Assembly: GCA_902590365.1 (NCBI GenBank)
Contig: CACIWJ010000005.1
Span: 1 to 32,185, forward strand
Direction: 5' to 3'
Length of the DNA stretch: 32,185 nucleotides
From: an uncultured Pelagibacteraceae bacterium
GTDB lineage: Bacteria; Pseudomonadota; Alphaproteobacteria; Pelagibacterales; Pelagibacteraceae
Each line of letters starts with the position of its first letter. The first letter of the stretch is position 1. A program made the position numbers and the translations under genes. A model generated the notes under the pieces. That model searched no databases. It was not told where the DNA came from and saw nothing but the letters and a program-made list of their open reading frames with translations. Positions 10,992-23,811 of the stretch are shown piece after piece.

Positions 10992-11408
10992 TTATTTAAT
11001 ATTACTCATCTTATTTAGAATTTTCCAGCTTTTCATATCTATAGGCATTATTGATAAACGGCTTTGTTTTATTAGGGCTAAATGCCTAAGTTTTTTATTT
11101 TTTTTTATATTTTCAAGAGTTATGTTTTTGTTTAAGTGCTTTTTGTATTTAATTTTTACTGCAACAAATTTTTTCATCTTATCAGTGGGGTCAATAAAAG
11201 ATTCTTTGATCACTTCTACAATTCCAACAATTTCTTTTCCAATATTTGAATGATAAAAAAAACATAGATCACCCATTTTCATCTTTTTTAAGTTATTTGC
11301 TGCTTGATAATTTCTAACTCCATCCCAGATTGAGCCGTCTTTACCTGCTTTTTTTTGTTGATCAATTGACCATACATTAGGTTCAGATTTTAATAACCAG
11401 TACTTCAT
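10992..11408 (-). CDS. EVE domain-containing protein
   Basis: MKYWLLKSEPNVWSIDQQKKAGKDGSIWDGVRNYQAANNLKKMKMGDLCFFYHSNIGKEIVGIVEV is the classical EVE/thymocyte nuclear protein 1-like N-terminus. Confidence 0.93.
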   Translation of the reverse strand: MKYWLLKSEPNVWSIDQQKKAGKDGSIWDGVRNYQAANNLKKMKMGDLCFFYHSNIGKEIVGIVEVIKESFIDPTDKMKKFVAVKIKYKKHLNKNITLENIKKNKKLRHLALIKQSRLSIMPIDMKSWKILNKMSNIK

Positions 11409-11418
11409 CTAATTGTTT
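11388..11418. repeat. 31-bp direct repeat, copy 1 (first 7 codons of the EVE gene plus 10 bp upstream)
   Basis: TTTTAATAACCAGTACTTCATCTAATTGTTT, identical to 17072-17102. Confidence 0.95.
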
Positions 11419-11504
11419 CTCCAATGTTTATGCCATTTTTGAATCATCGGACTTTCATTTTCCTTAATTTTTTTAAAACACGTACAACACAACGTACTAC
11501 ACAT
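11409..11504 (-). CDS. Possible 31-aa Cys-rich micro-ORF (MCSTLCCTCFKKIKENESPMIQKWHKHWRNN)
   Basis: ATG directly follows the TAA of the upstream ORF (TAAATG) and its TAG directly precedes the EVE ATG. Not in the ORF track because of length. May be an erosion product. Confidence 0.4.
   Translation of the reverse strand: MCSTLCCTCFKKIKENESPMIQKWHKHWRNN
11480..11503. repeat. Tandem 12-bp repeat (2 units: acgtacaacaca / acgtactacaca)
   Basis: Direct reading; 11/12 identity between units. Confidence 0.7.
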
Positions 11505-12002
11505 TTATTTAACTTTATATTCTTTTGCTAATTTTTCTAAAAATTTACCTTCATTCTTTTTTCTAAATTTAAAACCAATTGCCTCACCACACTGAAAATA
11601 ACCTAGCTTCCAGTCTATAGGAATTATATCTTCTTTAAAATTGTAACTTTTTTTATTATGCTCTGTTATTGTAACCAGTACTGTTTTGTCATTATCCCAA
11701 AACCAAGTCCACCACTCTTCATATGGCATAAGACTTTTTAACATTTTGTCCATTGTGGTAATTGCAGGTTGAAAGCAATGATCTCTATTAAAAGTTCCAG
11801 TTTTATATTTAAAATTATTATTTGCGAATTCTTTTAAAGCTTTTTTTGAAATTCCAACAACTCTCCAACTCCACGGTTCGTAGGTGAAAATATTTCGTAA
11901 AATTTTAATCTTATGGTTTTTTTTAAGAGACGATTTGAATACGGCTTTATAAAGTTCATAGATTTCTTTTTTTATATCTTCATTTGGTTTTGATAAACTC
12001 AT
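11505..12002 (-). CDS. Hypothetical protein (island-encoded)
   Basis: 165-aa ORF; aromatic-rich centre 'MPYEEWWTWFWDNDKTVLVTITEHN'; no family recognised. Confidence 0.65.
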   Translation of the reverse strand: MSLSKPNEDIKKEIYELYKAVFKSSLKKNHKIKILRNIFTYEPWSWRVVGISKKALKEFANNNFKYKTGTFNRDHCFQPAITTMDKMLKSLMPYEEWWTWFWDNDKTVLVTITEHNKKSYNFKEDIIPIDWKLGYFQCGEAIGFKFRKKNEGKFLEKLAKEYKVK

Positions 12003-12007
12003 ATAAT

Positions 12008-12475
12008 TTAATTTTTCTTATTTTTATCACCAAATTCAAATGTGAACGAGTCTTCTGTTATGTGAAGTTTTCCAACATCTTCAGGATGTTTTTTAAAATG
12101 TTCATTTAACCTTTTATCCTCCTCATGTTTCCATAAGTTATTAATACCAGCTTTCTCTTTCATTTCCTCTACCTGTCTTAATAGTGCATGGGTTTGACTT
12201 CCTAGATTGAGGATTCCCATTTCAACTTTTAGTGTACTATATTGCAGTTCCATTATTTTGGCTTGGGCTTCTTCTTTTTTATTTAAATCTTCTCTTAAAT
12301 CTTTAGCAATCAATTCTAAATCAAATTTTGTTAGGTTTGGACTCTTCTCAAGATTCCAAAGGCAACTTTGTATTCCTGTATGAGCCCAGCTTATAGTGTG
12401 TTTTTCTTTTTCTATATCCAAAATAATTTTTTCAAGTCTTTTAAATTTTCCGTCTTTATCATTAAACATACCCAT
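12008..12475 (-). CDS. Hypothetical helical protein (island-encoded)
   Basis: Track ORF starts at 12526, but the ATG at 12473-12475 (MGMFNDKDGKFKRLEKI...) has an AGGAG Shine-Dalgarno with 5-nt spacing (CAACAGGAGATCCTATG), so the shorter start is preferred. Confidence 0.65.
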   Translation of the reverse strand: MGMFNDKDGKFKRLEKIILDIEKEKHTISWAHTGIQSCLWNLEKSPNLTKFDLELIAKDLREDLNKKEEAQAKIMELQYSTLKVEMGILNLGSQTHALLRQVEEMKEKAGINNLWKHEEDKRLNEHFKKHPEDVGKLHITEDSFTFEFGDKNKKN

Positions 12476-12498
12476 AGGATCTCCTGTTGTTGAATTGT

Positions 12499-12526
12499 AT
12501 GTGGGCATAATAAAATATGCCCACAT
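12499..12526. other. Perfect 11-bp stem-loop (ATGTGGGCATA-ATAAAA-TATGCCCACAT) between two island genes
   Basis: Inverted repeat 12499-12509 / 12516-12526 with 6-nt loop; T-rich tract only on the plus-strand 3' side. Confidence 0.8.
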
Positions 12527-12533
12527 ATTCTAT

Positions 12534-12704
12534 TTATTTTTTTATTTTAAAGCCTTGCTTCTCTAAAAGACGTATGAGGTTTTTTTTAATTTCCTCTCTG
12601 CTAGTCTTAGAGTCGCCTATCTTTTCAAAGAATAAAAGTTTTTTTCCTTCTCTTTCTTTTGAAGCAAAATACTCTTTTATTGGCTTTATGGTGAATTTAA
12701 CCAT
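12534..12704 (-). CDS. 56-aa small protein, island-encoded
   Basis: Minus-strand ORF MVKFTIKPIKEYFASKEREGKKLLFFEKIGDSKTSREEIKKNLIRLLEKQGFKIKK* absent from the track; near-ideal Shine-Dalgarno AAAGGAGGAAT immediately before ATG. Preferred over the overlapping plus-strand track ORF 12517-12717. Confidence 0.75.
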   Translation of the reverse strand: MVKFTIKPIKEYFASKEREGKKLLFFEKIGDSKTSREEIKKNLIRLLEKQGFKIKK

Positions 12705-12877
12705 ATTCCTCCTTTAGCGTTGTTTTTATAGTCCCAGCAAGTAGAGATAATTTCTAAATCAGGACTATTTAAACTATATCAAATAAAATAGATTTTATCA
12801 AATTTGTGCCACTATTAATTATTATATTTATAATTGTTAAGTTTCTTTATTCTTAAGAACATTCATTCAACTACATT

Positions 12878-13225
12878 ATGAAACAAATAAACAATCAAAG
12901 TGAGGAAAGAAGTGATTTCATTAGTGACTTCAAAAATCAGATTGCTAGATACACAGACACTTTAAGTGAAACTTCTGATGAAATAAGATATGCAGAACAC
13001 ATAGTTCCACATAAAGGCAAAGAAATAATACCTGGAATGGAATATGAGGACTACATAGATATTAAAAAAAAAAATCTTAAAGGACTTACTTATGACCAAA
13101 TTCTTCTTTTCTTAAAAAATACAACACCACCAAATGGAAGAATAAAAAAATTTAAAAATTTTCTTTCATCAAAGGATATTTATTTTGAATCAGGCTTGTG
13201 GACATGGCATAATAAAGACTTATAA
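12878..13225 (+). CDS. Hypothetical protein, first gene of the R-M operon
   Basis: 115-aa ORF ending 8 bp upstream of the REase ORF, same strand. Confidence 0.65.
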   Translation: MKQINNQSEERSDFISDFKNQIARYTDTLSETSDEIRYAEHIVPHKGKEIIPGMEYEDYIDIKKKNLKGLTYDQILLFLKNTTPPNGRIKKFKNFLSSKDIYFESGLWTWHNKDL

Positions 13226-13233
13226 TTTTTTAT

Positions 13234-15024
13234 ATGACATTACCCTGGTCAATTACAACAACGGTTAGAAATCCCTTAAGAAACAGAGAATTTTTAAAAA
13301 CCCTTACTGAGTTTGAAGGGAAAGAATTTAATGAGGAAATTCAAATTAAATTTCAAATACGGCTTATAGAAAAAAGGTTATATAAGCCAAATAAAATACC
13401 TCCGGACTGCCAAAGTTTAATGGCCTCTAATTCAATAATTGATTATCAGAATGCTAAAAAAATATTTGATTATAACCAATATGAGGACCCACCCATGAGA
13501 GGAAGACAGTCAGCAAACCCTTTAAATAAGTTGGGATTTGCCGTAGCAAGAAAAAATTTTGACAAAATAATTATTACACCTTTAGGTAAAAAATTTTTAA
13601 AAGAAGATTTTGATATTAATTATATATTTTTAAAAAGTTTAATAAAGCTTCAATTTCCTAATCCATGGAGCAGGGATTTTTCAAAAAAAAAAGGATTTAA
13701 TATAAATCCATTCATATCAGTTCTGCATTTGTTGAATAAAATAAATAAAAATTTAAAAGTCAAAGGACTTACTCAAACGGAGTTTTCTGTTTTTGTTCCA
13801 ACATTGAATAATTTTAAATCTATAGATGATCAAATAGAAAATATTTACACTTATAGAAAAAAGACTGATAAAAAATCCTATATCAATGATTTTGCCGTAA
13901 GATTTTATAATAAAAGAAAACTGGATAAAAAAAAAATAAACGATTTATTTGATTATGGAGATAATATTATGAGATATTTTAGATTAACTAATTATTTTAA
14001 AGTTTCCAAAAGCCATTTGTTAGGAGAGTGGAGAATAGATTTAGAACCCACAAAAAAAGAAGAAATAAATCAATTAATTAACGGATTTAGTGGTGAACCT
14101 TTAAATTTTGATAATGAGAATAGTTATATCAAATATCTTTCAGACCTAAATTTACCAAAATTACCTTGGGAAAATAAGGAAAATCTAATTAAAATCATAA
14201 TAAGTTATAAAAAAAATATTTTAGAAATTGTTAAAAAAAATAAATTAGACATTAAAAAATTTTATAAAAATTTTGATAACATAAAATTTACTTTAAATAC
14301 CCCAAAGGAAAAATTAATATCTATTAAAGAAAAATATATAAATATTTATAAAGAAATTAAAAACTATATAAATTTTGATAAAATGAAATATGATTTAAAT
14401 AAACTTCAGGATAAAATAGAATTTTTAGATGATTCAAAAAAAGTCAATTCACGTGATTTTAAACCAGAAATGTTTGAAAAATTTTTTGTAGATATATTCA
14501 CAATTTTAAATGATAGCAAAAAAATTAAGCCAAATTATCCAATGGATGAAGATGGTGAACCATTAAGTCATGCTTCTTCAAGTAAACCAGATTTTGAGTG
14601 TTATTATAATAATTTCAATATTGTTGGAGAAGTTACAAAACAACAAGGTGGGAATCAGTGGATGACGGAAACAGTTCCACCACAAAAACATTTATCGGAT
14701 TTTGAAGATAAAAATAAAGATAAACCAAACTTCCTTTTATTTCTCTCCCCCACAATTCACGAAAGAACATATGCAAATTTTTTTATTGCAACTAAAGGAG
14801 GGGCTTATGGAAAACAAAAAATTATACCTTTGTCTACAATTCAATTTTCTTCATTGTTAAAACAATTTATTGTATTTATTAAATCAAATAAAAAATTTAA
14901 TTCCGATCTACTAGAAAGTTTTTTAGAAGAAATGGTTGATTTAGCCGAAAAATCAGAAACAGCAACACAATGGTCAGCCAATATAAATAAAGCAGTTAAA
15001 AATTATAAAATTAATGAAGACTAA
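13234..15024 (+). CDS. AlwI/BstNBI-family Type IIS restriction endonuclease
   Basis: N-terminus 'LPWSITTTVRNPLRNREFLKTLTEFEGKEFNEEIQIKFQIRLIEKRLYKP' is characteristic of RE_AlwI family proteins; candidate PD-(D/E)xK-like site 'SKPDFECYYNNFNIVGEVTKQQG' in the C-terminal half; followed by two DNA MTases. Confidence 0.85.
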   Translation: MTLPWSITTTVRNPLRNREFLKTLTEFEGKEFNEEIQIKFQIRLIEKRLYKPNKIPPDCQSLMASNSIIDYQNAKKIFDYNQYEDPPMRGRQSANPLNKLGFAVARKNFDKIIITPLGKKFLKEDFDINYIFLKSLIKLQFPNPWSRDFSKKKGFNINPFISVLHLLNKINKNLKVKGLTQTEFSVFVPTLNNFKSIDDQIENIYTYRKKTDKKSYINDFAVRFYNKRKLDKKKINDLFDYGDNIMRYFRLTNYFKVSKSHLLGEWRIDLEPTKKEEINQLINGFSGEPLNFDNENSYIKYLSDLNLPKLPWENKENLIKIIISYKKNILEIVKKNKLDIKKFYKNFDNIKFTLNTPKEKLISIKEKYINIYKEIKNYINFDKMKYDLNKLQDKIEFLDDSKKVNSRDFKPEMFEKFFVDIFTILNDSKKIKPNYPMDEDGEPLSHASSSKPDFECYYNNFNIVGEVTKQQGGNQWMTETVPPQKHLSDFEDKNKDKPNFLLFLSPTIHERTYANFFIATKGGAYGKQKIIPLSTIQFSSLLKQFIVFIKSNKKFNSDLLESFLEEMVDLAEKSETATQWSANINKAVKNYKINED

Positions 15025-15805
15025 TCACATTTATCAGGGCAACTGTATTGAAATATTAAATAAATCAATAAAAAAAAATTCAATTGATTTAATTTATGCA
15101 GACCCTCCTTACAATCTCTCTGGAAAAAAATTAAATCTTGAAGGTAATCTCACAGGTGGCGCGTTTTTTAAAATGAATGAGGACTGGGATACTTTTGATT
15201 ATGATGGTTATTTAAAATTTAGCGAAGAATGGATTTCCGAAAGTTACAAAGTATTAAAAGATAATGGTAGTATTTATATATCTTGCACATACCATAACAT
15301 TGGTGAAGTGATTTTTTTAGCTAAAAAGTTTAATCTTAAATTAAAAAATATTATTACATGGTATAAAACCAACTCAATGCCAAACATTACTAAGAGAACC
15401 TATACACATGCAACGGAGTATGTTTGTTGGTTTGTAAAAGGAAGTAAATGGAAATTTAATTACGAAGAAGTAAAAAAATTTAATCCCAACAAAACTAAAA
15501 ACGGAGAAGATAAGCAAATGAGAGATTTTTTAGATTTTTTCGAATCACCAATTCTTCAAGGCAAAGAAAGAATAAAAGATAATAAAAATAAACGTGCGGC
15601 ACATCCAACTCAAAAGCCAGAAAAATTATTAGAATTAATTATTCGCGCTTCATCTAATAAAAACGATTTAATACTTGATCCTTTTTTTGGTACCGGTACA
15701 ACTGGTTATGTAGCGAATAAATTAAAAAGAAAATGGATTGGAATAGAAATAAATTCAAAATATATCAAAATTTCAAAAAAAAGAATGTTGAATGGCAAAA
15801 AATAA
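15014..15805 (+). CDS. Beta-class DNA methyltransferase M1 (probable N6-adenine)
   Basis: IDLIYADPPYNLSG early and LILDPFFGTGTTGYVANKLKRKWIGIEIN late (DPPY then FxGxG order = beta class), AAHPTQKPEKLLELII. Overlaps the REase 3' end by 11 bp. Confidence 0.92.
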   Translation: MKTNHIYQGNCIEILNKSIKKNSIDLIYADPPYNLSGKKLNLEGNLTGGAFFKMNEDWDTFDYDGYLKFSEEWISESYKVLKDNGSIYISCTYHNIGEVIFLAKKFNLKLKNIITWYKTNSMPNITKRTYTHATEYVCWFVKGSKWKFNYEEVKKFNPNKTKNGEDKQMRDFLDFFESPILQGKERIKDNKNKRAAHPTQKPEKLLELIIRASSNKNDLILDPFFGTGTTGYVANKLKRKWIGIEINSKYIKISKKRMLNGKK

Positions 15806-16553
15806 GGAATTAAATTATTGTAAATTGTACAACGAAGATTGTATTCAATACTTGAAAAAAATTAAATCAAATTCTATTGATTTAATTTTTGCTGACCCAC
15901 CTTATAACTTATCAGATAAAAAATTTTTAACTGTAAAAAGTGGCAAAGTTGCAAAATGTGATAAGGGCGAATGGGATAAAATAAATGACATTGAAAGTTT
16001 TAACATTGATTGGTTAACGCAATGTAAAAGAATTTTGAAAGAAAGTGGAACAATATGGATCTCAGGTACATTACATAATCATCCAAGTATTGGACAATGT
16101 TTAAAAAATTTAGGTTTTTGGATTATTAACGACATAATATGGTTTAAACGAAATGCGCCTCCTTTATTGTCTAGAAATAGACTTGTTCCTTCAACTGAAT
16201 TAATTTGGTTAGCTAGCAGAAATAAAAAATACTATTTTGACTATGATCATGCAAAAATTTTTAATTCTGGAAAACAACTAAGAAATCTTTGGGACATAAA
16301 TGCCCAAAGACATAAAACTGAGCATCCAACTGAAAAACCTGAAATTTTGTTAGAAAGAATTTTAGAAATTGGTTCTAAAAAAAATTCAATTATCCTAGAT
16401 CCATTTATGGGATCGGGAACAACTGGAGTTGTTGCAAAAAGGTATGAAAGAAACTTTATTGGAATAGAAATTGATAAAAAATATTTTAAAATTGCAAAAA
16501 AAAGAATTGAAATGACAAATGTTGATTTGCAATTAAAGATTCAGTCAGCTTAA
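15792..16553 (+). CDS. Beta-class DNA methyltransferase M2 (probable N6-adenine)
   Basis: IDLIFADPPYNLSD, EHPTEKPEILLERILEIG, ILDPFMGSGTTGVVAKRYERNFIGIEID; overlaps M1 by 14 bp. Confidence 0.92.
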   Translation: MAKNKELNYCKLYNEDCIQYLKKIKSNSIDLIFADPPYNLSDKKFLTVKSGKVAKCDKGEWDKINDIESFNIDWLTQCKRILKESGTIWISGTLHNHPSIGQCLKNLGFWIINDIIWFKRNAPPLLSRNRLVPSTELIWLASRNKKYYFDYDHAKIFNSGKQLRNLWDINAQRHKTEHPTEKPEILLERILEIGSKKNSIILDPFMGSGTTGVVAKRYERNFIGIEIDKKYFKIAKKRIEMTNVDLQLKIQSA

Positions 16554-16574
16554 TTTTATCAGATACAATTAAAA

Positions 16575-17030
16575 ATGGATAAAGGAAGCAAACCACTTGA
16601 AATAAATGACTTAAGTGCTTTTGAGTTTGTTAAAGAATGCTTAAAAGGTGATGTAACTTTCGGCATAAATTTTGATAGGATTCAAACAAATTCGGAAACT
16701 GGTAAATATATGATTCTTGAATATTTACTTTGTGATGAAAAACAATTTAAAAATAATGTAACTCCTTTTACAAGTCACCCAAATCGATACTTTCATCTGA
16801 ACAAACAAAAGTTCATAAAACTTTGGGAATTAACAAAAAAACTAAATGCTGATCTATTTTTGATTAATTATTCAAAAAAAAATACTCAATACGAAAATGA
16901 AATATTATTAATGAAAGCAATTGATATTCAAGATAAAATTGAAAATCCTGTTTCTACAGAAAATAAAAAAATGAGTAGGGAAGAATTTTCATTCTGGTTA
17001 AGGAATGTAAATAAATTAGGTAAAGGTTAG
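16575..17030 (+). CDS. Hypothetical R-M-linked protein, possibly nuclease-fold
   Basis: 151-aa ORF immediately downstream of M2 on the same strand; 'GINFDRIQTNSETGKYMILEYLLCDE' is weakly reminiscent of D...ExL nuclease cores. Confidence 0.6.
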   Translation: MDKGSKPLEINDLSAFEFVKECLKGDVTFGINFDRIQTNSETGKYMILEYLLCDEKQFKNNVTPFTSHPNRYFHLNKQKFIKLWELTKKLNADLFLINYSKKNTQYENEILLMKAIDIQDKIENPVSTENKKMSREEFSFWLRNVNKLGKG

Positions 17031-17071
17031 TGGGAGTCAGTCGAGTCTTATAGATGTATCACAAGTGTTGG

Positions 17072-17102
17072 TTTTAATAACCAGTACTTCATCTAATTGT
17101 TT
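17072..17102. repeat. 31-bp direct repeat, copy 2 (EVE-gene 5'-end fragment: MKYWLLK)
   Basis: TTTTAATAACCAGTACTTCATCTAATTGTTT identical to 11388-11418; reverse complement encodes the EVE start ATGAAGTACTGGTTATTAAAA, then diverges. Confidence 0.95.
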
Positions 17103-17148
17103 TCCTTATTTTATTTATTTTTTATTTGGGCTATAAATAAATTTTAAA

Positions 17149-18342
17149 ATGAAAAAAAAATTTTTAAATCTATTCAAACAACCAATAACAAACTCATATC
17201 TTAGTAATATAAATAAAAAAACTACTAAAAAAGAGTTTTTTTATAACCTTTCAGTTGTTTTTGATAAAAAAAACTATCTTGTATCATTAGCAAATCCAAT
17301 AAATCCTAAAAAACAGTATACTAATAAATACGCCCATAGAGCATCTCAATCAGTGACGATGAGTCAATCTTTTAAAAAAATTGCATTAAAGTTACAAAAA
17401 AAATTTAAACCAAGTTTTAGTCTTGAAGTTGGAAGTAATGATGGAGTTTTTATAAAAAATTTTAGTAAAAAAAAAATAATTGCAGTCGAGCCATGTTCAA
17501 ATTTAGCAAAAATAACAAATAAATTAGGTTATGTTACTTACGATAAATTTTGGAATAAAGAATTAGCTAATTCTATAATAGGTAAATATTCAAAATTAGA
17601 TCTAATTTTTTCAGCTAACACCATGTCTCATATACCCAATTTAAAGGAAACATTTGATGCTATTTATATTTCATTAAATGAAGATGGAGTTTTTGTATTT
17701 GAAGATCCTTATATAGGATCAGTAATAAAAATGAATTCTTACGATCAATTTTATGATGAACATGTACATTTATTTTCTTTATTATCAATTTCAAATTTAT
17801 TAGAAAATTCAAAATTAAAAATTTTTGATGTAGAATTGTTGCCTACTCACGGCGGCTCTATAAGATTTTATGTATGTAAGAAATCATCTAAAATAAAAAA
17901 AAGTAAAAGGGTCATAGAATTAAAAAAAAGAGAGCTAAAACAAAAATTAAATAAATTAATAACTTATAAAAAATTTGCTACAAGAGTCAAAAAATCAAAA
18001 CGCGATCTTTTATTGCTGTTAAAAAAAATTAAAAAAAATGGAAAAAGAATAATTAGTTATGGAGCAACTTACAAATCGGCTACAATTTTTAATTATTGTA
18101 ATATTGGTACTAATTTGATTGAGTATGTAATAGACTCAACAAAAAATAAACAAGGAAAATTTACTCCTGGTAAGCACATACCGATTAAATCACCAAAAAA
18201 TGGAATAGATAAAAATGTAGACTATGCTTTTTTAGGTGCATGGAATTTTGAAAAAGAAATAAAAAAAAAAGAGATTAATTTTTTAAAGAACGGTGGTAAA
18301 TTTATAACCCATATCCCTTCAGTAAAAATAATTAGCTTATAA
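17149..18342 (+). CDS. Sugar C-methyltransferase (TylCIII/EvaC/TcaB9-type SAM-dependent MTase)
   Basis: SLEVGSNDGVFIKNF (SAM site), VFEDPYIGSVI, YDEHVHLFSL, THGGSIRFYVC, ISYGATYKSATIFNYCNI, CMT-family C-terminal domain; N-terminal 'KQPITNSYL' corresponds to the family 'QPLANSFL'. Confidence 0.85.
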   Translation: MKKKFLNLFKQPITNSYLSNINKKTTKKEFFYNLSVVFDKKNYLVSLANPINPKKQYTNKYAHRASQSVTMSQSFKKIALKLQKKFKPSFSLEVGSNDGVFIKNFSKKKIIAVEPCSNLAKITNKLGYVTYDKFWNKELANSIIGKYSKLDLIFSANTMSHIPNLKETFDAIYISLNEDGVFVFEDPYIGSVIKMNSYDQFYDEHVHLFSLLSISNLLENSKLKIFDVELLPTHGGSIRFYVCKKSSKIKKSKRVIELKKRELKQKLNKLITYKKFATRVKKSKRDLLLLLKKIKKNGKRIISYGATYKSATIFNYCNIGTNLIEYVIDSTKNKQGKFTPGKHIPIKSPKNGIDKNVDYAFLGAWNFEKEIKKKEINFLKNGGKFITHIPSVKIISL

Positions 18343-18344
18343 AA

Positions 18345-19601
18345 ATGAAGAACATATTATTAAATAAATGGATCCAAAAACAAAAAAAAATTAATAAAAT
18401 GCAAGTAACAAAAGTAAATTTTAATAAAATGGAAAAATGGTTTTTTAGTCAATCAGAAATTTATAACAGAAACAAAAATTTTTTTTCTATAATTCCTTAC
18501 AAGTTTAAAAAAAATAATAAAACTTTTTTTTACCAACCTTTAATTATTCAAAAAGAAGTTGGAATATTAGGTATATTAAAAAAAAAAATTAATTTTATCG
18601 ATCATTATTTACTTCAAGCAAAAGTTGAACCAGGCAACATAAACAATATACAATTGTCTCCTACTGTACAGGCAACCAAAAGCAATTTTTTACGTAAGCA
18701 TGGTGGAAAAAAAACTAGATATTTAGATTATTTTATAAAAAAAAAATCTAATACAGATATTCTAACTAACCTTAAATTATCCGAGCAAGGCACCAGATAT
18801 TATCAAAAGTTTAACAAAAATATCTTAATAGATATAAAAAATAAAAAAATAAAAAAATTTTTTAATTTTGTATGGGTTACAAAAAAAAATTTAATAACTT
18901 TAGTTAATAAAAAAAACCTTTTAAATATGGATACAATTTCTGTACTTTCCAGTTCTCTTATGCCTAATTTAGTTGATTATCCTAAAAATAAGTTAAGTAA
19001 AATTATTTTAAAATTAGGTCAATTTAAAAAAAAATCAAAGTTAACTAAAAAAAAAACCTATTTTAATAAATTGAAAAATTGGAAAATTTCTAAAGATAAA
19101 ATTTATGATATTAATAAAGATTTTTTTTCAATAATAGCTTTAAAAGTTAATACAAATTCTAGAGAGGTAAGGAAATGGTATCAACCCATTATTAGTGATC
19201 ATAGTGCTTCAATCAATGGATTTTTGTTAAAAAAAATTAATAATACACCTCATTATCTTTTGCAAATTATTCAAGAACCTGGTTTTAATTTACCAAAATT
19301 TACTTCAACTATTTGTATAAAAAACTATAATTTTAATAAGAAAGATAAAAATTATTATATTAATTTTTTTAAAAAAAATTCTTTTTTATTGAATGTTGTA
19401 AATTCTGATGAGGGAGGTAGATTTTTTAAAAATGAAACTAGAAATATCATTTCTAAAGTAGATATTAAAAAAAAAATTATAATTAAAAGTAATTACATTT
19501 GGGCTTCTTATAATCAAATTATTAACTTGATTAGTAAAAATTTACTTTCCATAGAAGCTAGAAATTTGTTTGCTAGTTTTAATATTGATAAAATCAAATA
19601 A
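18345..19601 (+). CDS. NDP-hexose 2,3-dehydratase (EvaA/TylCVI-type)
   Basis: Two tandem homologous halves (FFSIIPYKF..FYQPLII..GILGILKKKINFIDHYLLQAKVEPGN / FFSIIALKV..WYQPIISDHSASINGFLLKKINNTPHYLLQIIQEPGF) with 'S.LSEQGTRYYQ' / 'SDEGGRFF' motifs. Confidence 0.85.
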   Translation: MKNILLNKWIQKQKKINKMQVTKVNFNKMEKWFFSQSEIYNRNKNFFSIIPYKFKKNNKTFFYQPLIIQKEVGILGILKKKINFIDHYLLQAKVEPGNINNIQLSPTVQATKSNFLRKHGGKKTRYLDYFIKKKSNTDILTNLKLSEQGTRYYQKFNKNILIDIKNKKIKKFFNFVWVTKKNLITLVNKKNLLNMDTISVLSSSLMPNLVDYPKNKLSKIILKLGQFKKKSKLTKKKTYFNKLKNWKISKDKIYDINKDFFSIIALKVNTNSREVRKWYQPIISDHSASINGFLLKKINNTPHYLLQIIQEPGFNLPKFTSTICIKNYNFNKKDKNYYINFFKKNSFLLNVVNSDEGGRFFKNETRNIISKVDIKKKIIIKSNYIWASYNQIINLISKNLLSIEARNLFASFNIDKIK

Positions 19602-19619
19602 TATATATAGTTTAATTTA

Positions 19620-20777
19620 ATGATAAAAGTTTGGGACTATTTAAAAGAGTATAAAGAGTTAAGAACTGAAATTTTAGATGCTGTTGATCAAGTTTTTAAA
19701 AATGGTGTTCTTATTTTTGGACCTAAATTGGAAGAGTTTGAAAATAAATTTTCTAAATATAATGACTGTAAATATGGCATTGGTGTAGGTAATTGTACTG
19801 ATGCAATTACAATAGCCTTGAAGGCATGCGGCGTTGGTCGTGGAGATGAGGTAATTACAACCTCTAATACAGCAGTTCCAACTGTCACAGCCATAGTTAA
19901 TACTGGAGCAACAGTAAAATTTGTAGATATTGATAAATATTCTTTGATGGATGTTACAAAATTATCAGGTGCAATTTCACAAAAAACTAAAGCAATAGTT
20001 CCAGTACATTTATTTGGTCAAATGTGTGACATGAAAGCTATTATGAAAATTGCAGAAGAAAAAAATTTAAAAGTAATTGAAGATTGTGCACAATCTCATG
20101 GTGCCACATATAATGGCAAGAAAGCAGGATCTATTGGTAATATTGGATGTTATTCTTTTTATCCTACCAAAATATTCGGAGCGTATGGAGATGGAGGATT
20201 TATCACAACAAACAATGAACAATTATTTGATAAAATGAGAAGAATAAGATTTTTAGGAATGGAAAAGAAAAAAATGTCATCAGGGCACTGGAATGGCAAA
20301 TATTATGCAGTTGAACATGGTATGAATTCTAGATTAGATGAAGTTCATGCAGCAATTTTGCTAAAAAAACTTCCTTATTTAGATAAGTGGATTGCAAGAA
20401 GAAGAGAAATTGCCAATAGGTATAATGAAGAATTAAAAGATTTAGATTTAGAATTACCATTAGAGCACCCTAATAATAAACATGCATACTATATTTATGT
20501 TGTGGGTCACAAAAATAGAGATAAAATTATGAGTGATCTTGCAAAACAAGATATACACCTAAACATAAGCTATCCATGGCCAATACACATAATGGATGCT
20601 TATAAACATTTTGTATGTTCAGATACATGCCTTAAAAAAACAGAAGTTGTATGTTCATATACATGCCTTAAAAAAACAGAAGAACAGGCAAAAAAAATAT
20701 TTTCCTTACCCATGTATCCAACTTTAGAAGATGCAGAACAAGAAACAGTTATCAAAGAATTAAAAAAGTTAATCTAA
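19620..20777 (+). CDS. DegT/DnrJ/EryC1/StrS family PLP-dependent sugar aminotransferase
   Basis: GVGNCTDAITIALKACGVGRGDEVITTSNTAVPTVTAI, VIEDCAQSHGATYNGKKAGSIGNIGCYSFYPTKIFGAYGDGGFI (PLP lysine in YPTK), GMNSRLDEVHAAILLKKLPYLDKW. Confidence 0.93.
   Translation: MIKVWDYLKEYKELRTEILDAVDQVFKNGVLIFGPKLEEFENKFSKYNDCKYGIGVGNCTDAITIALKACGVGRGDEVITTSNTAVPTVTAIVNTGATVKFVDIDKYSLMDVTKLSGAISQKTKAIVPVHLFGQMCDMKAIMKIAEEKNLKVIEDCAQSHGATYNGKKAGSIGNIGCYSFYPTKIFGAYGDGGFITTNNEQLFDKMRRIRFLGMEKKKMSSGHWNGKYYAVEHGMNSRLDEVHAAILLKKLPYLDKWIARRREIANRYNEELKDLDLELPLEHPNNKHAYYIYVVGHKNRDKIMSDLAKQDIHLNISYPWPIHIMDAYKHFVCSDTCLKKTEVVCSYTCLKKTEEQAKKIFSLPMYPTLEDAEQETVIKELKKLI
20613..20684 (+). repeat. In-frame 36-bp tandem duplication inside the aminotransferase (VCSDTCLKKTEV / VCSYTCLKKTEE)
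   Basis: Units 20613-20648 and 20649-20684 differ at 3 of 36 positions. Confidence 0.9.
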
Positions 20778-20800
20778 TATTATTTAATTTTAATGACAAC

Positions 20801-20858
20801 TTTTTTGTTAACTTATTGACCACACATTTAGTTCTGATTATTAAAACCAATACTTCAT
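20801..20858 (-). pseudogene. Decayed 5' fragment of an EVE-domain gene
   Basis: Minus strand ATGAAGTATTGGTTTTAATAATCAGAACTAAATGTGTGGTCAATAAGTTAACAAAAAA aligns ungapped with the intact EVE start ATGAAGTACTGGTTATTAAAATCTGAACCTAATGTATGGTCAATTGATCAACAAAAAA (46/60 matches by hand over the first 60 nt); translates MKYWF**SELNVWSIS*QK versus MKYWLLKSEPNVWSIDQQK. Confidence 0.85.
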
Positions 20859-22727
20859 TTAAATTTCAATGTTGTTAGTTTCTTCACCCTTCATATATTT
20901 TTCAAACATCAAAAAATAAGCTTTTTCCAAATTTTTTGTAAATAATTTAATATCATATAAAGATGATTTTGATTTATTTTCTAAAATTTTATTTTTTAAA
21001 TTACTTAAATAATTTTTATCGTTAGCAATTTTATTAGCGAGTTTTTCATACTCTTCATAAGAGGTGGTAATTAATTCCGGTAACATCATTGTATTTAGAA
21101 AACTTGCTGACACTCTGCTTGTAAAAGACTCTCCCATACAAGTTAAAACAGGTAAGCCTATTCTTAGTACATCACTGCATGTTGAATGAGCCGTATAGGG
21201 AAAAGTATCTAAAAATAAATCTGCATTTTTTATTCTGCTCAAATGTTCATCTAATGGCAAACGTTTAGCAAATATGATCCTTTTTTCATCTAATCCTTTT
21301 TTTGAAGCTTCTAATTTAAGATTTTTAGATGAATATTTATTAAATTCCCTTAACCAAAGTACACTATTTGAATTTTTTTTTAAAAGATTAATCCATATAT
21401 TGAATATAGAAGGTGTTATTTTTTGGTGTGAATTAAAACAACAAAAAATAAATTTTTCTTCAGGTAAATTCAATTCTTTTCTATAAAATTTTTTTTCAGA
21501 AATTTTTTTAATGCCTTCAATCGGATGATAAGAATTTGGCATATATACAATTTTTTCTGAATAAAATTTTTGATTATTTTTAGGTATTACTGTTTTATCA
21601 GCAATTATATAATCAATTGATTTAGAACCACTTGTACCTGGATATCCTAAAAAATTTAATTGAATAGGTGCACACCTTTGAGTAAAAATTCCAAATCTAC
21701 TTTCAGTACCTGTATGGGTAGTAAGATCAACAGCAATATCAATGTTTAATTCTAAGGAAAGGTCGGCTACTTTTGAGTCCGTCATAGATTTTATATTAAT
21801 AAATTTATCAAATGTATTAACAATTTTTTTATGTATTAAGTCTTTTTCGTCTAAATTTTCTCCAAAATAAAAACCGTATATTTCAAATTTTGATTTATCA
21901 TGAGACTCAAGCATACCAACAATAGTATTTCCAACAGCATGATCTCTAAAGTCTGCAGAAAAATAAGCTATTCGAATTTTTTTTTTATTTTTTATTAAAT
22001 TATTTAACTTTCTATCGTTTGATTTAAATTGTTTAACCCAAATTTCTGATGCTTTTTTTTGTAAATGTGGAGAGTCAAATATAGTTAGTGCTGTAAAAGG
22101 AATAGATACTTTTTTTTCGTTTTCTAAATTTAATTTTATTGTTTCAATATCTTTTTGAAAATCTTCCCAGTTACAACCCTTAGATTTTGTATGAACTATA
22201 TATCCTAGTAAAAGAGGATGTTCTGGATTTATTATGTAAGCATTTTTATAATTATCCAAAGCTTCTTCTAATCTATCTAATTGTGACAAAATATGTGCTT
22301 TAAAAATATATCCATTAATAGAATTGGGTTTAATTTCTATGGCTTTATCATAACTTAATAATGCATCTTCGTATTTATTTAGTCTTGATAATGCATTGCC
22401 TTTATTATTATGTGCATCAAAAAAATCAGGTTTAATTTCAATTGCTTTATTAAAGTGCGTTATTGCTTCATCATATTTTTTTAAATTCAAAAAAGCATTT
22501 CCTAAATTATTATATGCAAAAAAATATTTGGGATTTAACTCTAAAGCTTTTTTCCATTTATCGATAGATTCATCATACTCTTTAAGTTGAAATAAAATAA
22601 TTGCAAAAATATTAAAAAATTCAGAATTATTATTATTTTTATCATTTATCTCAATACACTTATTTTTTGCTTCAATGAAGTTTCCTTTTTTAATTAAATC
22701 AAAAATAATATTAATATCTGAATTCAT
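20859..22727 (-). CDS. TPR-repeat O-GlcNAc transferase/SPINDLY-like (GT41) glycosyltransferase
   Basis: Several TPR units (ALELNPKYFFAYNNLGNAFLNLKKYDEAITHFNKAIEIKPDFFDAHNNKGNAL...) then FSADFRDHAVGNTIVGMLESHDKSKFEIYGFYFG, CAPIQLNFLGYPGTSGSKSIDYIIADKTVIP, DLFLDTFPYTAHSTCSDVLRIGLPVLTCMGESFTSRVSASFL. Confidence 0.93.
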   Translation of the reverse strand: MNSDINIIFDLIKKGNFIEAKNKCIEINDKNNNNSEFFNIFAIILFQLKEYDESIDKWKKALELNPKYFFAYNNLGNAFLNLKKYDEAITHFNKAIEIKPDFFDAHNNKGNALSRLNKYEDALLSYDKAIEIKPNSINGYIFKAHILSQLDRLEEALDNYKNAYIINPEHPLLLGYIVHTKSKGCNWEDFQKDIETIKLNLENEKKVSIPFTALTIFDSPHLQKKASEIWVKQFKSNDRKLNNLIKNKKKIRIAYFSADFRDHAVGNTIVGMLESHDKSKFEIYGFYFGENLDEKDLIHKKIVNTFDKFINIKSMTDSKVADLSLELNIDIAVDLTTHTGTESRFGIFTQRCAPIQLNFLGYPGTSGSKSIDYIIADKTVIPKNNQKFYSEKIVYMPNSYHPIEGIKKISEKKFYRKELNLPEEKFIFCCFNSHQKITPSIFNIWINLLKKNSNSVLWLREFNKYSSKNLKLEASKKGLDEKRIIFAKRLPLDEHLSRIKNADLFLDTFPYTAHSTCSDVLRIGLPVLTCMGESFTSRVSASFLNTMMLPELITTSYEEYEKLANKIANDKNYLSNLKNKILENKSKSSLYDIKLFTKNLEKAYFLMFEKYMKGEETNNIEI

Positions 22728-22731
22728 AAAA

Positions 22732-23811
22732 TTATAGCTTAACTCCAGCTCCTTTTAAAAAAATAGCTTCAGAATCTAGTGGCCATCTTGGTTTTGCAGG
22801 ATGATCAAAACTATCATATTTTTTTATTTTAAATTTTTCTAATCCAACCATTGCTATCATTGCAGCGTTATCTCCACATAGATCTAAAGGCGGAAAAATT
22901 GGATCAAAATTTTCTTTTAAACTTAAGTCAGTTAAAATTTTTCTTATTTTTTTGTTAGCAGCCACTCCTCCCGCGACAACAAAAGTATTATTTTTATTTT
23001 TATTTTTATTTAATTTTCTAAATTCATTAAAAGCAACTTTTGTTTTTTTATATAATATTTCCTCTATGGTTTTTTGAAAAGAAGCTGCAAGATCATATTT
23101 ATCTTGATCAGTTTTAATTTTTTTTGAAATTTTTAATACAGCAGTTTTTAAACCTGCAAAGGACAAGTTGCATCCACCTTTATTTATTATTGGTTTTGGT
23201 AATTGAAACTTTTCAGGGTCTCCTTTTTCTGCAAATTTTTCTAATAAAGGTCCACCAGGAAATTCAATTCCTATTAATTTTGCAGTTTTATCAAATGCCT
23301 CTCCAAGGGCATCATCAATCGTAGTTCCTAATCTTTTATATTTTCCTAATCCCTGAACACTTAAATATTGTGAATGTCCTCCAGAAATTAATAGAAGTAA
23401 GTACGGGTAATTTAATTTGGTTACAAGTTTTGGACTTAATGCATGTCCTTCTAGATGGTTGACTGCTACAAAAGGTTTATTTAAAAATGATGCAATTGAT
23501 TTTCCAAAATTAAGACCAACAGACAAACATACAATTAATCCTGGACCTGCAGTTGCAGCAATAGCATCAACATCTTCTAATTTTTTTCCACTTTCTTTGA
23601 TTGCTTTTTTTGCAATAAGATCAATTTTTTCAATATGAGATCTGGCTGCTAGCTCAGGAACAACCCCTCCAAATTCTTTATGGATATCAACTTGACTAGA
23701 TACAATATTGGATAAAATAGACGGCACCCCATTACTATTTTCTTGTATTAATGCTACGGCTGTTTCATCACAGCTGGATTCTATTCCCAAAATAATAGTT
23801 TTTTTTTTCAT
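22732..23811 (-). CDS. tsaD: tRNA N6-adenosine threonylcarbamoyltransferase
   Basis: ILGIESSCDETAVALI, HKEFGGVVPELAARSHIEKI, VNHLEGHALSP, LLISGGHSQYL, VAGGVAANKKIR. Confidence 0.97.
   Translation of the reverse strand: MKKKTIILGIESSCDETAVALIQENSNGVPSILSNIVSSQVDIHKEFGGVVPELAARSHIEKIDLIAKKAIKESGKKLEDVDAIAATAGPGLIVCLSVGLNFGKSIASFLNKPFVAVNHLEGHALSPKLVTKLNYPYLLLLISGGHSQYLSVQGLGKYKRLGTTIDDALGEAFDKTAKLIGIEFPGGPLLEKFAEKGDPEKFQLPKPIINKGGCNLSFAGLKTAVLKISKKIKTDQDKYDLAASFQKTIEEILYKKTKVAFNEFRKLNKNKNKNNTFVVAGGVAANKKIRKILTDLSLKENFDPIFPPLDLCGDNAAMIAMVGLEKFKIKKYDSFDHPAKPRWPLDSEAIFLKGAGVKL

Follow-up and report, generated by a model that had tools for sequence, protein, structure and literature searches.

Staphylococcal cassette chromosome (SCC) elements are modular cassettes that stack at one conserved gene; they occupy the 3' end of rlmH, rely on Ccr serine recombinases and are also known in recombinase-less versions. 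The SXT/R391 integrative and conjugative elements (ICEs) integrate site-specifically in the 5' end of prfC, and SXT, about 100 kb long, encodes a tyrosine integrase and conjugation genes of its own (PMC2791158). The microcin H47 island of E. coli is small, flanked by direct repeats and devoid of a recombinase; it is moved by functions from elsewhere, which its authors regard as a parasitic strategy (PMC3191183). Cis-mobilisable elements (CIMEs) retain ends without integrase or transfer genes and accrete in tandem at one gene (PMC5704250). The Tycheposons of streamlined marine bacteria carry cargo at fixed sites, are 4-200 kb long, use tRNA genes and encode a tyrosine recombinase (PMC10872708). 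The present analysis concerns a stretch of 32,185 nucleotides, referred to below as the window, from an uncultured Pelagibacteraceae bacterium (GCA_902590365.1, contig CACIWJ010000005.1), in which an AlwI-type restriction-modification (R-M) module lies between two copies of the start of a gene for an EVE-domain protein. The interval 11409-17071 is probably a non-autonomous integrative element, mobilised in trans, that carries this R-M system and belongs to a SAR11 family sharing both its ends and its target, the EVE start.

Shared ends and empty sites at the EVE gene

A reading of the window from its sequence alone (hereafter the sequence-only reading) had drawn attention to an exact 31-bp direct repeat, TTTTAATAACCAGTACTTCATCTAATTGTTT, bracketing the R-M module like an att pair. 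A match search of the window confirms both copies (Table 1), where base composition predicts about 2e-12 second copies. With up to three mismatches allowed, no further copy occurs in the window (none expected from shuffled sequences) or elsewhere in the source genome assembly, which is 57.6% complete; within this assembly the repeat is confined to these two sites and is not a dispersed one. As had been read, the first copy consists of the reverse complement of EVE codons 1-7 (11388-11408) followed by 10 bp of leader (11409-11418). In the second, 17072-17092 encodes the same seven residues, MKYWLLK, and the frame then continues into the non-EVE peptide PTLVIHL, so that the rest of the gene is indeed missing there.

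The proposal that the cassette entered by recombination at the 5' end of EVE is supported by the occurrence of both empty and occupied sites in relatives. The EVE gene is present in 346 of 397 sampled genomes of the family, and the EVE-tsaD locus was read in 39 relatives. In 12 of them the tsaD-EVE junction is uninterrupted, with 3-4 bp separating the tsaD stop from the EVE start codon; alignment coordinates give L065, a thirteenth relative, the same gap, but its EVE start codon is elsewhere. This gap of 3-4 bp is the ancestral empty site. Other relatives carry 0.1 to 14 kb of unrelated DNA between the two genes; some of these loci have a copy of the EVE start on either side of the unrelated cargo. 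In G154, one of the closest relatives as judged by EVE identity, this position holds a TPR gene alone.

Comparison of occupied loci from different genera reveals two shared sequences, which a single window could not have disclosed: an A-end of about 100 bp, immediately after EVE codons 1-7, and a B-end of about 115 bp, directly before a second, host-varied copy of codons 1-7 adjoining tsaD. The two ends are different sequences and not inverted repeats of each other. The earlier att-pair interpretation stands as regards an att-like pair, while the 31-bp core gives way to a general core of about 20 bp. The exact repeat is longer in the window partly because the window contains a tandem junction, with a degraded A-end starting at 17093.

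A scan of 85,462 species genomes across GTDB with a 33-base B-end pattern returned 27 loci, all from SAR11. The titles of 26 refer to Pelagibacteraceae, Pelagibacterales or Pelagibacter; the exception, the single-cell alphaproteobacterium AAA288-G21, was placed within the Pelagibacteraceae by the family search. Profile models trained for each end on some of these loci (a subset that matches by construction) identify 24 complete A-to-B units in 22 Pelagibacteraceae genomes, and carriers of one or both ends belong to at least six genera according to the genus labels of the family search. All but one of the 24 units are located at EVE, all in one orientation, and they range from 202 to 6875 bp. 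Recognisable R-M genes occur in 11: AlwI-type systems (window, L163), N6/N4 and D12 methylases with a PLD-type endonuclease (L054, L164), type I-like M and S genes (L055, L156, L158), C5 methylases (L152, L155), a type ISP enzyme (L140) and an Eco57I-like methylase with an SNF2/PLD helicase (L162). The remaining units encode nuclease-like, helicase or unknown proteins and, in one case, an autotransporter with a lectin domain.

Two loci depart from this arrangement. In L138 (AG-414-L04 contig 1, oriented 16231-16364) an orphan B-end lies away from EVE, with no A-end within the stretch read. In L056 (G365), core genes are surrounded by A- and B-like ends of greater divergence, which perhaps belong to another, older family of such units.

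The units are discrete, lie in unrelated flanks and have moved as units. AG-909-G09 and AG-917-E05 have a whole unit of 3415 bp in common at 99.3% identity, between flanks of only 65-73%, and the high identity stops at the core on both sides. Similarly, 4215 bp are common to L054 and L164 at 93.9%, against 64-74% in the flanks. The reverse holds for L097 and L164, close relatives with flanks 97% and 91% identical, whose restriction systems at this site differ. Both extremities of the window's unit have counterparts in other hosts: 420 bp at its right end are found at 99.8% identity in AG-365-L04, where they abut tsaD directly (tsaD 77% identical), and the left 1096 bp at 99.1% in G268, whose adjoining EVE protein is 70% identical, with divergence beyond.

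Tandem B-end/core/A-end junctions occur in L139, L140 and L165, whose units are stacked at one site; the window is also such a tandem, and the arrays are made up only of units of the same kind. In AAA288-G21 the unit is located at an EVE start that does not adjoin tsaD, which identifies EVE, and not tsaD, as the target. The secondary site, in AG-410-D23, lies beside tctA. Host and core overlap there only in TTTNATAA, and the exchange point is therefore placed just before CCAG.

Core and arms of the proposed attachment site

The first four EVE codons read GTACTTCAT in 18 of 21 unit-bearing sites and in 1 of 13 empty ones (p ~1e-5 with genomes counted as independent, which related genomes are not). 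This contrast indicates that the unit brings EVE codons 1-4 with it. Across the junction, the B-side, core and A-side take the form GTGTTGGTT-TNANT-AACCAGTAC, in which the inverted half-sites match at 7 of 9 positions (background 0.6%). Further out, each end usually carries two copies of an arm iteron, CGTAC-YMYRC, about 12 bp apart and in the same direction. A search for the iteron pair in the 27 host genomes gave 46 matches at up to two mismatches, all at unit ends, against none for the reversed control. Moreover, the A- and B-arms of a unit resemble each other: they agree at 22.5 of 26 positions, compared with 19.7 after shuffling, a value equalled in 0/20000 shuffles (the minimal unit being excluded). 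The result is the same when three units with near-duplicates are dropped, although shared descent still contributes to it.

Ends and core together resemble the attP of a heterobivalent (lambda-type) tyrosine recombinase, a likeness based on the half-sites and the matched iteron pairs, of which the window is missing the B-arm. The smallest unit, L046 (G042:C19, oriented 2230-2432), consists of 202 bp with both ends and no cargo; it is apparently the product of a deletion between its two arm iterons.

The A-end also has features of a translational leader: GGAG stands about 10 bases 5' of the EVE start, and a mini-ORF (open reading frame) ends right before the ATG, with the sequence MIQKWHKHWRNN and a stop in the window and variants of it in the other loci checked. 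Since no sigma-70-like site emerged when the A-end was scanned for promoters, any resupply of expression signals is limited to the ribosome-binding part. At the other extremity, the old EVE start beside tsaD encodes a 14-residue peptide, MKYWLLKPTLVIHR or similar, in most loci checked.

The sequence-only reading had left the mechanism open; the comparison narrows the choice to site-specific recombination by an enzyme acting in trans, the main rival being cargo swaps through homologous recombination. In the favoured model a trans-supplied enzyme, most likely a heterobivalent tyrosine recombinase, would join a circular unit to the EVE start at this site, the iteron pairs 70-100 bp away on each side acting as arm sites. 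After integration the first four EVE codons and a fresh leader for ribosome binding would come from the A-end, which would keep EVE readable, and next to tsaD the old start would persist as a short peptide that leads nowhere. Codon 6 of EVE, the variable triplet, would fall in the presumed overlap, and either copy could become host-like after mismatch resolution. Repeated integration would give rise to tandem arrays, and recombination inside units to swaps of cargo. What the loci demonstrate are the paired ends, precise transfer of whole units, one target and one orientation, arrays, empty sites and the matching of arms within units; the enzyme class, its supply in trans and its current activity are inferred.

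Candidate recombinases and alternative explanations

Several observations weigh against site-specific integration by an enzyme acting in trans. The interval between the repeats contains no tRNA gene and no recombinase, in agreement with the sequence-only reading, and no recombinase gene was found in any unit read: none of the cargo proteins tested matched one, and no integrase of their own was recognised among the cargo ORFs or adjoining the units. Hosts typically have one XerC/D-like gene each as their PF00589 complement; resolvase-family genes occur in 2 of the 27, and P4-type integrases in 4 of the 397 family genomes, none at EVE. A search of viral, phage and plasmid collections turned up no attP-like DNA, no circular form of a unit was seen, and no parent ICE or integrative and mobilisable element (IME) was found for the units. 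At the level of the site, half-site symmetry is weak in empty sites, mostly 5/9 (background 11%), and the B-end of the window, like that of AG-365-L04, has no iteron pair although this end moved recently. Finally, the core triplets of AG-909-G09 and AG-917-E05 differ on both sides, which would require heteroduplex resolution or gene conversion. The missing enzyme is nevertheless weak evidence, because many of the hosts are incomplete single-cell genomes.

A number of candidate partners were set aside. Viral contigs L128-L134, picked up by a short B-end pattern, have only a 19-mer in common with the units and not the rest of the end, a match attributed to chance. Two viral contigs have an iteron-like pair, but it precedes unrelated genes at a distance from the contigs' integrases and is not accompanied by A- or B-ends. 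The four P4-type integrases (G042 C9, G172 C72, G223 C14, G126 C61) are ruled out as partners by their position away from EVE. The one in G042, read at sequence level, adjoins a tRNA-like sequence, and primase-like ORFs lie close to two others; they are likely parts of prophages or satellites located elsewhere. In L052, an ORF of 99 aa next to the A-end was considered as an integrase arm-binding domain and not used, having no match in Pfam or PHROGs and no significant BLAST similarity to P4-type integrases. Integration by Xer at dif was set aside since the core, in EVE, is the start of a coding sequence; no search for dif was made.

The lack of a recombinase would be expected if the ends had been placed at EVE long ago and RecA-type recombination across their roughly 100 bp each now swapped the cargo from cell to cell, with no active recombinase today. 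Such homologous exchange would also account for mosaics that break inside units, as where the window and G268 diverge beyond their common left part, for the triplets of AG-909-G09 and AG-917-E05 being host-like on both sides and for the movement of the arm-less B-end of the window. It leaves unexplained the tandem B-end/core/A-end junctions, the secondary site at tctA and the matching of arm variants within units, and in AG-909-G09 and AG-917-E05 identity is high right up to the core on both sides. We consider this explanation unlikely, though to be taken seriously.

That the units are no more than separate remnants of larger ICEs or prophages at the EVE start, deprived of their integrase and no longer moving, appears very improbable. 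They do have the look of CIMEs, which keep end sites without mobility genes (PMC5704250), and some are plainly degraded (L153, L154 and the second block of the window). However, near-identical whole units in distant hosts require recent movement, intact units are free of recognised mobility or phage structural genes, and the family sample contains no full-size ancestor at the EVE site. A transposon with a plain target-site duplication of 12-20 bp is more improbable still and was set aside. The two core copies resemble each other, with the same variable triplet in 8 of 17 loci, but this agreement is barely above chance (p = 0.04). Furthermore, EVE codons 1-4 next to the unit follow the unit and not the host, in the proportions given above; the two ends are not mutual inverted repeats, and insertion is almost always at one gene.

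The window's unit and its place among known systems

The features of the window are collected in Table 1. The sequence-only reading had placed an AlwI-like restriction endonuclease and two methyltransferases between the repeats, which Pfam matches bear out; its "about six" unknown genes are in fact four ORFs of 165, 172, 115 and 151 aa, none with a Pfam match. The 165-aa ORF has no match in PHROG, PADLOC or NCBIfam either. Members of the 115-aa protein family stand beside R-M genes in other units, and at least two genomes (G268 C9, G402 C6) have further DNA matches to the family elsewhere. In the B-end of the window, the end of the 151-aa ORF takes the place of the absent iterons.

Table 1. 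Coordinates of features in the window
Feature	Position	Strand	Evidence or remark
EVE-domain gene, 138 aa, target; first 7 codons form the putative attachment core	10992..11408	-	PF01878, 4.5e-43
EVE-side copy of the 31-bp repeat (core 11388-11408)	11388..11418	-	exact match
A-end of unit	11409..11512	-	nhmmer A-end model 116 bits; window among training sequences
Mini-ORF MIQKWHKHWRNN in A-end, stop directly before EVE ATG	11409-11447	-	translation
A-arm iteron pair CGTACAACACAA-CGTACTACACATTT	11481..11506	+	alignment of ends
Cargo ORF, 165 aa, unknown	11505..12002	-	100% identical in G268
Cargo ORF, 172 aa, unknown	12008..12526	-	99% identical in G268
Cargo ORF, 115 aa	12878..13225	+	52-59% identical in L054, L097, L100, L152, L155, L163, L164
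AlwI-type restriction endonuclease	13234..15024	+	PF09491, 1.4e-63
DNA methyltransferase 1 (N6/N4)	15014..15805	+	PF01555, 2.5e-64
DNA methyltransferase 2 (N6/N4)	15792..16553	+	PF01555, 4.5e-57
151-aa protein, resembles C-terminal part of a type II restriction enzyme	16575..17030	+	PADLOC REase_II, 7.5e-16
B-end of unit, conserved inner part only	17019..17071	+	nhmmer B-end model 98 bits over 16956-17095; window among training sequences
Second copy of the 31-bp repeat (core 17072-17092)	17072..17102	+	exact match
Degraded A-end of second, older tandem unit	17093..17132	+	29-bit A-end match 17070-17107
Second block: C-methyltransferase, NDP-hexose 2,3-dehydratase, DegT aminotransferase (+), TPR protein (-)	17149..22727
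tsaD, right-hand flanking gene	22732..23811	-

Beyond the second repeat, the degraded A-end resembles the second A-end in AG-365-F10. The block that follows, which has no B-end adjoining tsaD, is probably an older insertion. Its TPR gene (20859-22727) has counterparts between EVE and tsaD in several relatives, on the strand opposite to that in the window, and its DegT aminotransferase frame includes a short internal duplication at 20620-20700, with CLKKTE present twice.

SAR11 are the most abundant bacteria of the ocean; their genomes are small, with few recognisable mobile elements, yet they differ in their immunity genes, and phage attack on them is heavy. The units provide a concrete route by which cassettes with standard ends, often carrying R-M systems, pass between genera, using one harmless socket in which insertion leaves the EVE gene unbroken. 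A more tentative suggestion, to which we give somewhat less than even credence, is that they form a pool of minimal, recombinase-free immunity cassettes at a single socket, mobilised in trans by an unseen phage, satellite or transfer agent, and that the arm iterons may define specificity classes of the mobiliser. The end definitions are sufficient to count units in metagenomes, to seek circular forms and to trace the recombinase through the arm repeats. The unit family is undescribed in the full-text literature covered on SAR11 islands and immunity elements; its novelty is provisional because that coverage misses most subscription papers and preprints.

As in att-flanked islands, direct repeats stand at both ends of the units and one copy is present at the empty site; the integrase that ICEs, IMEs and satellites of the tyrosine-recombinase type encode is absent. 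Tycheposons differ in having a tRNA gene at the site and a recombinase, and SCC elements in their target and in their enzymes, the SAR11 target being EVE and resolvase-family genes being found in so few of the hosts. Integron gene cassettes are marked by attC sites and an integron integrase; the ends of the SAR11 units are two unlike sequences bearing direct iterons. With SXT the units share the use of the 5' end of a conserved housekeeping gene as integration site, but they measure 0.2-7 kb and have neither integrase nor conjugation genes. In possessing both end sites without integration or transfer genes they conform to the definition of CIMEs. However, CIMEs derive from recognisable ICEs or IMEs, whereas no parent was found here and near-identical units stand alone in distant hosts. 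The microcin H47 island is similar in its flanking direct repeats and in lacking its own recombinase. That system comprises one island with one cargo and extensive imperfect repeats, whereas the SAR11 units combine many cargoes with compact iteron ends and a single gene-start target, form tandems and are spread across genera.

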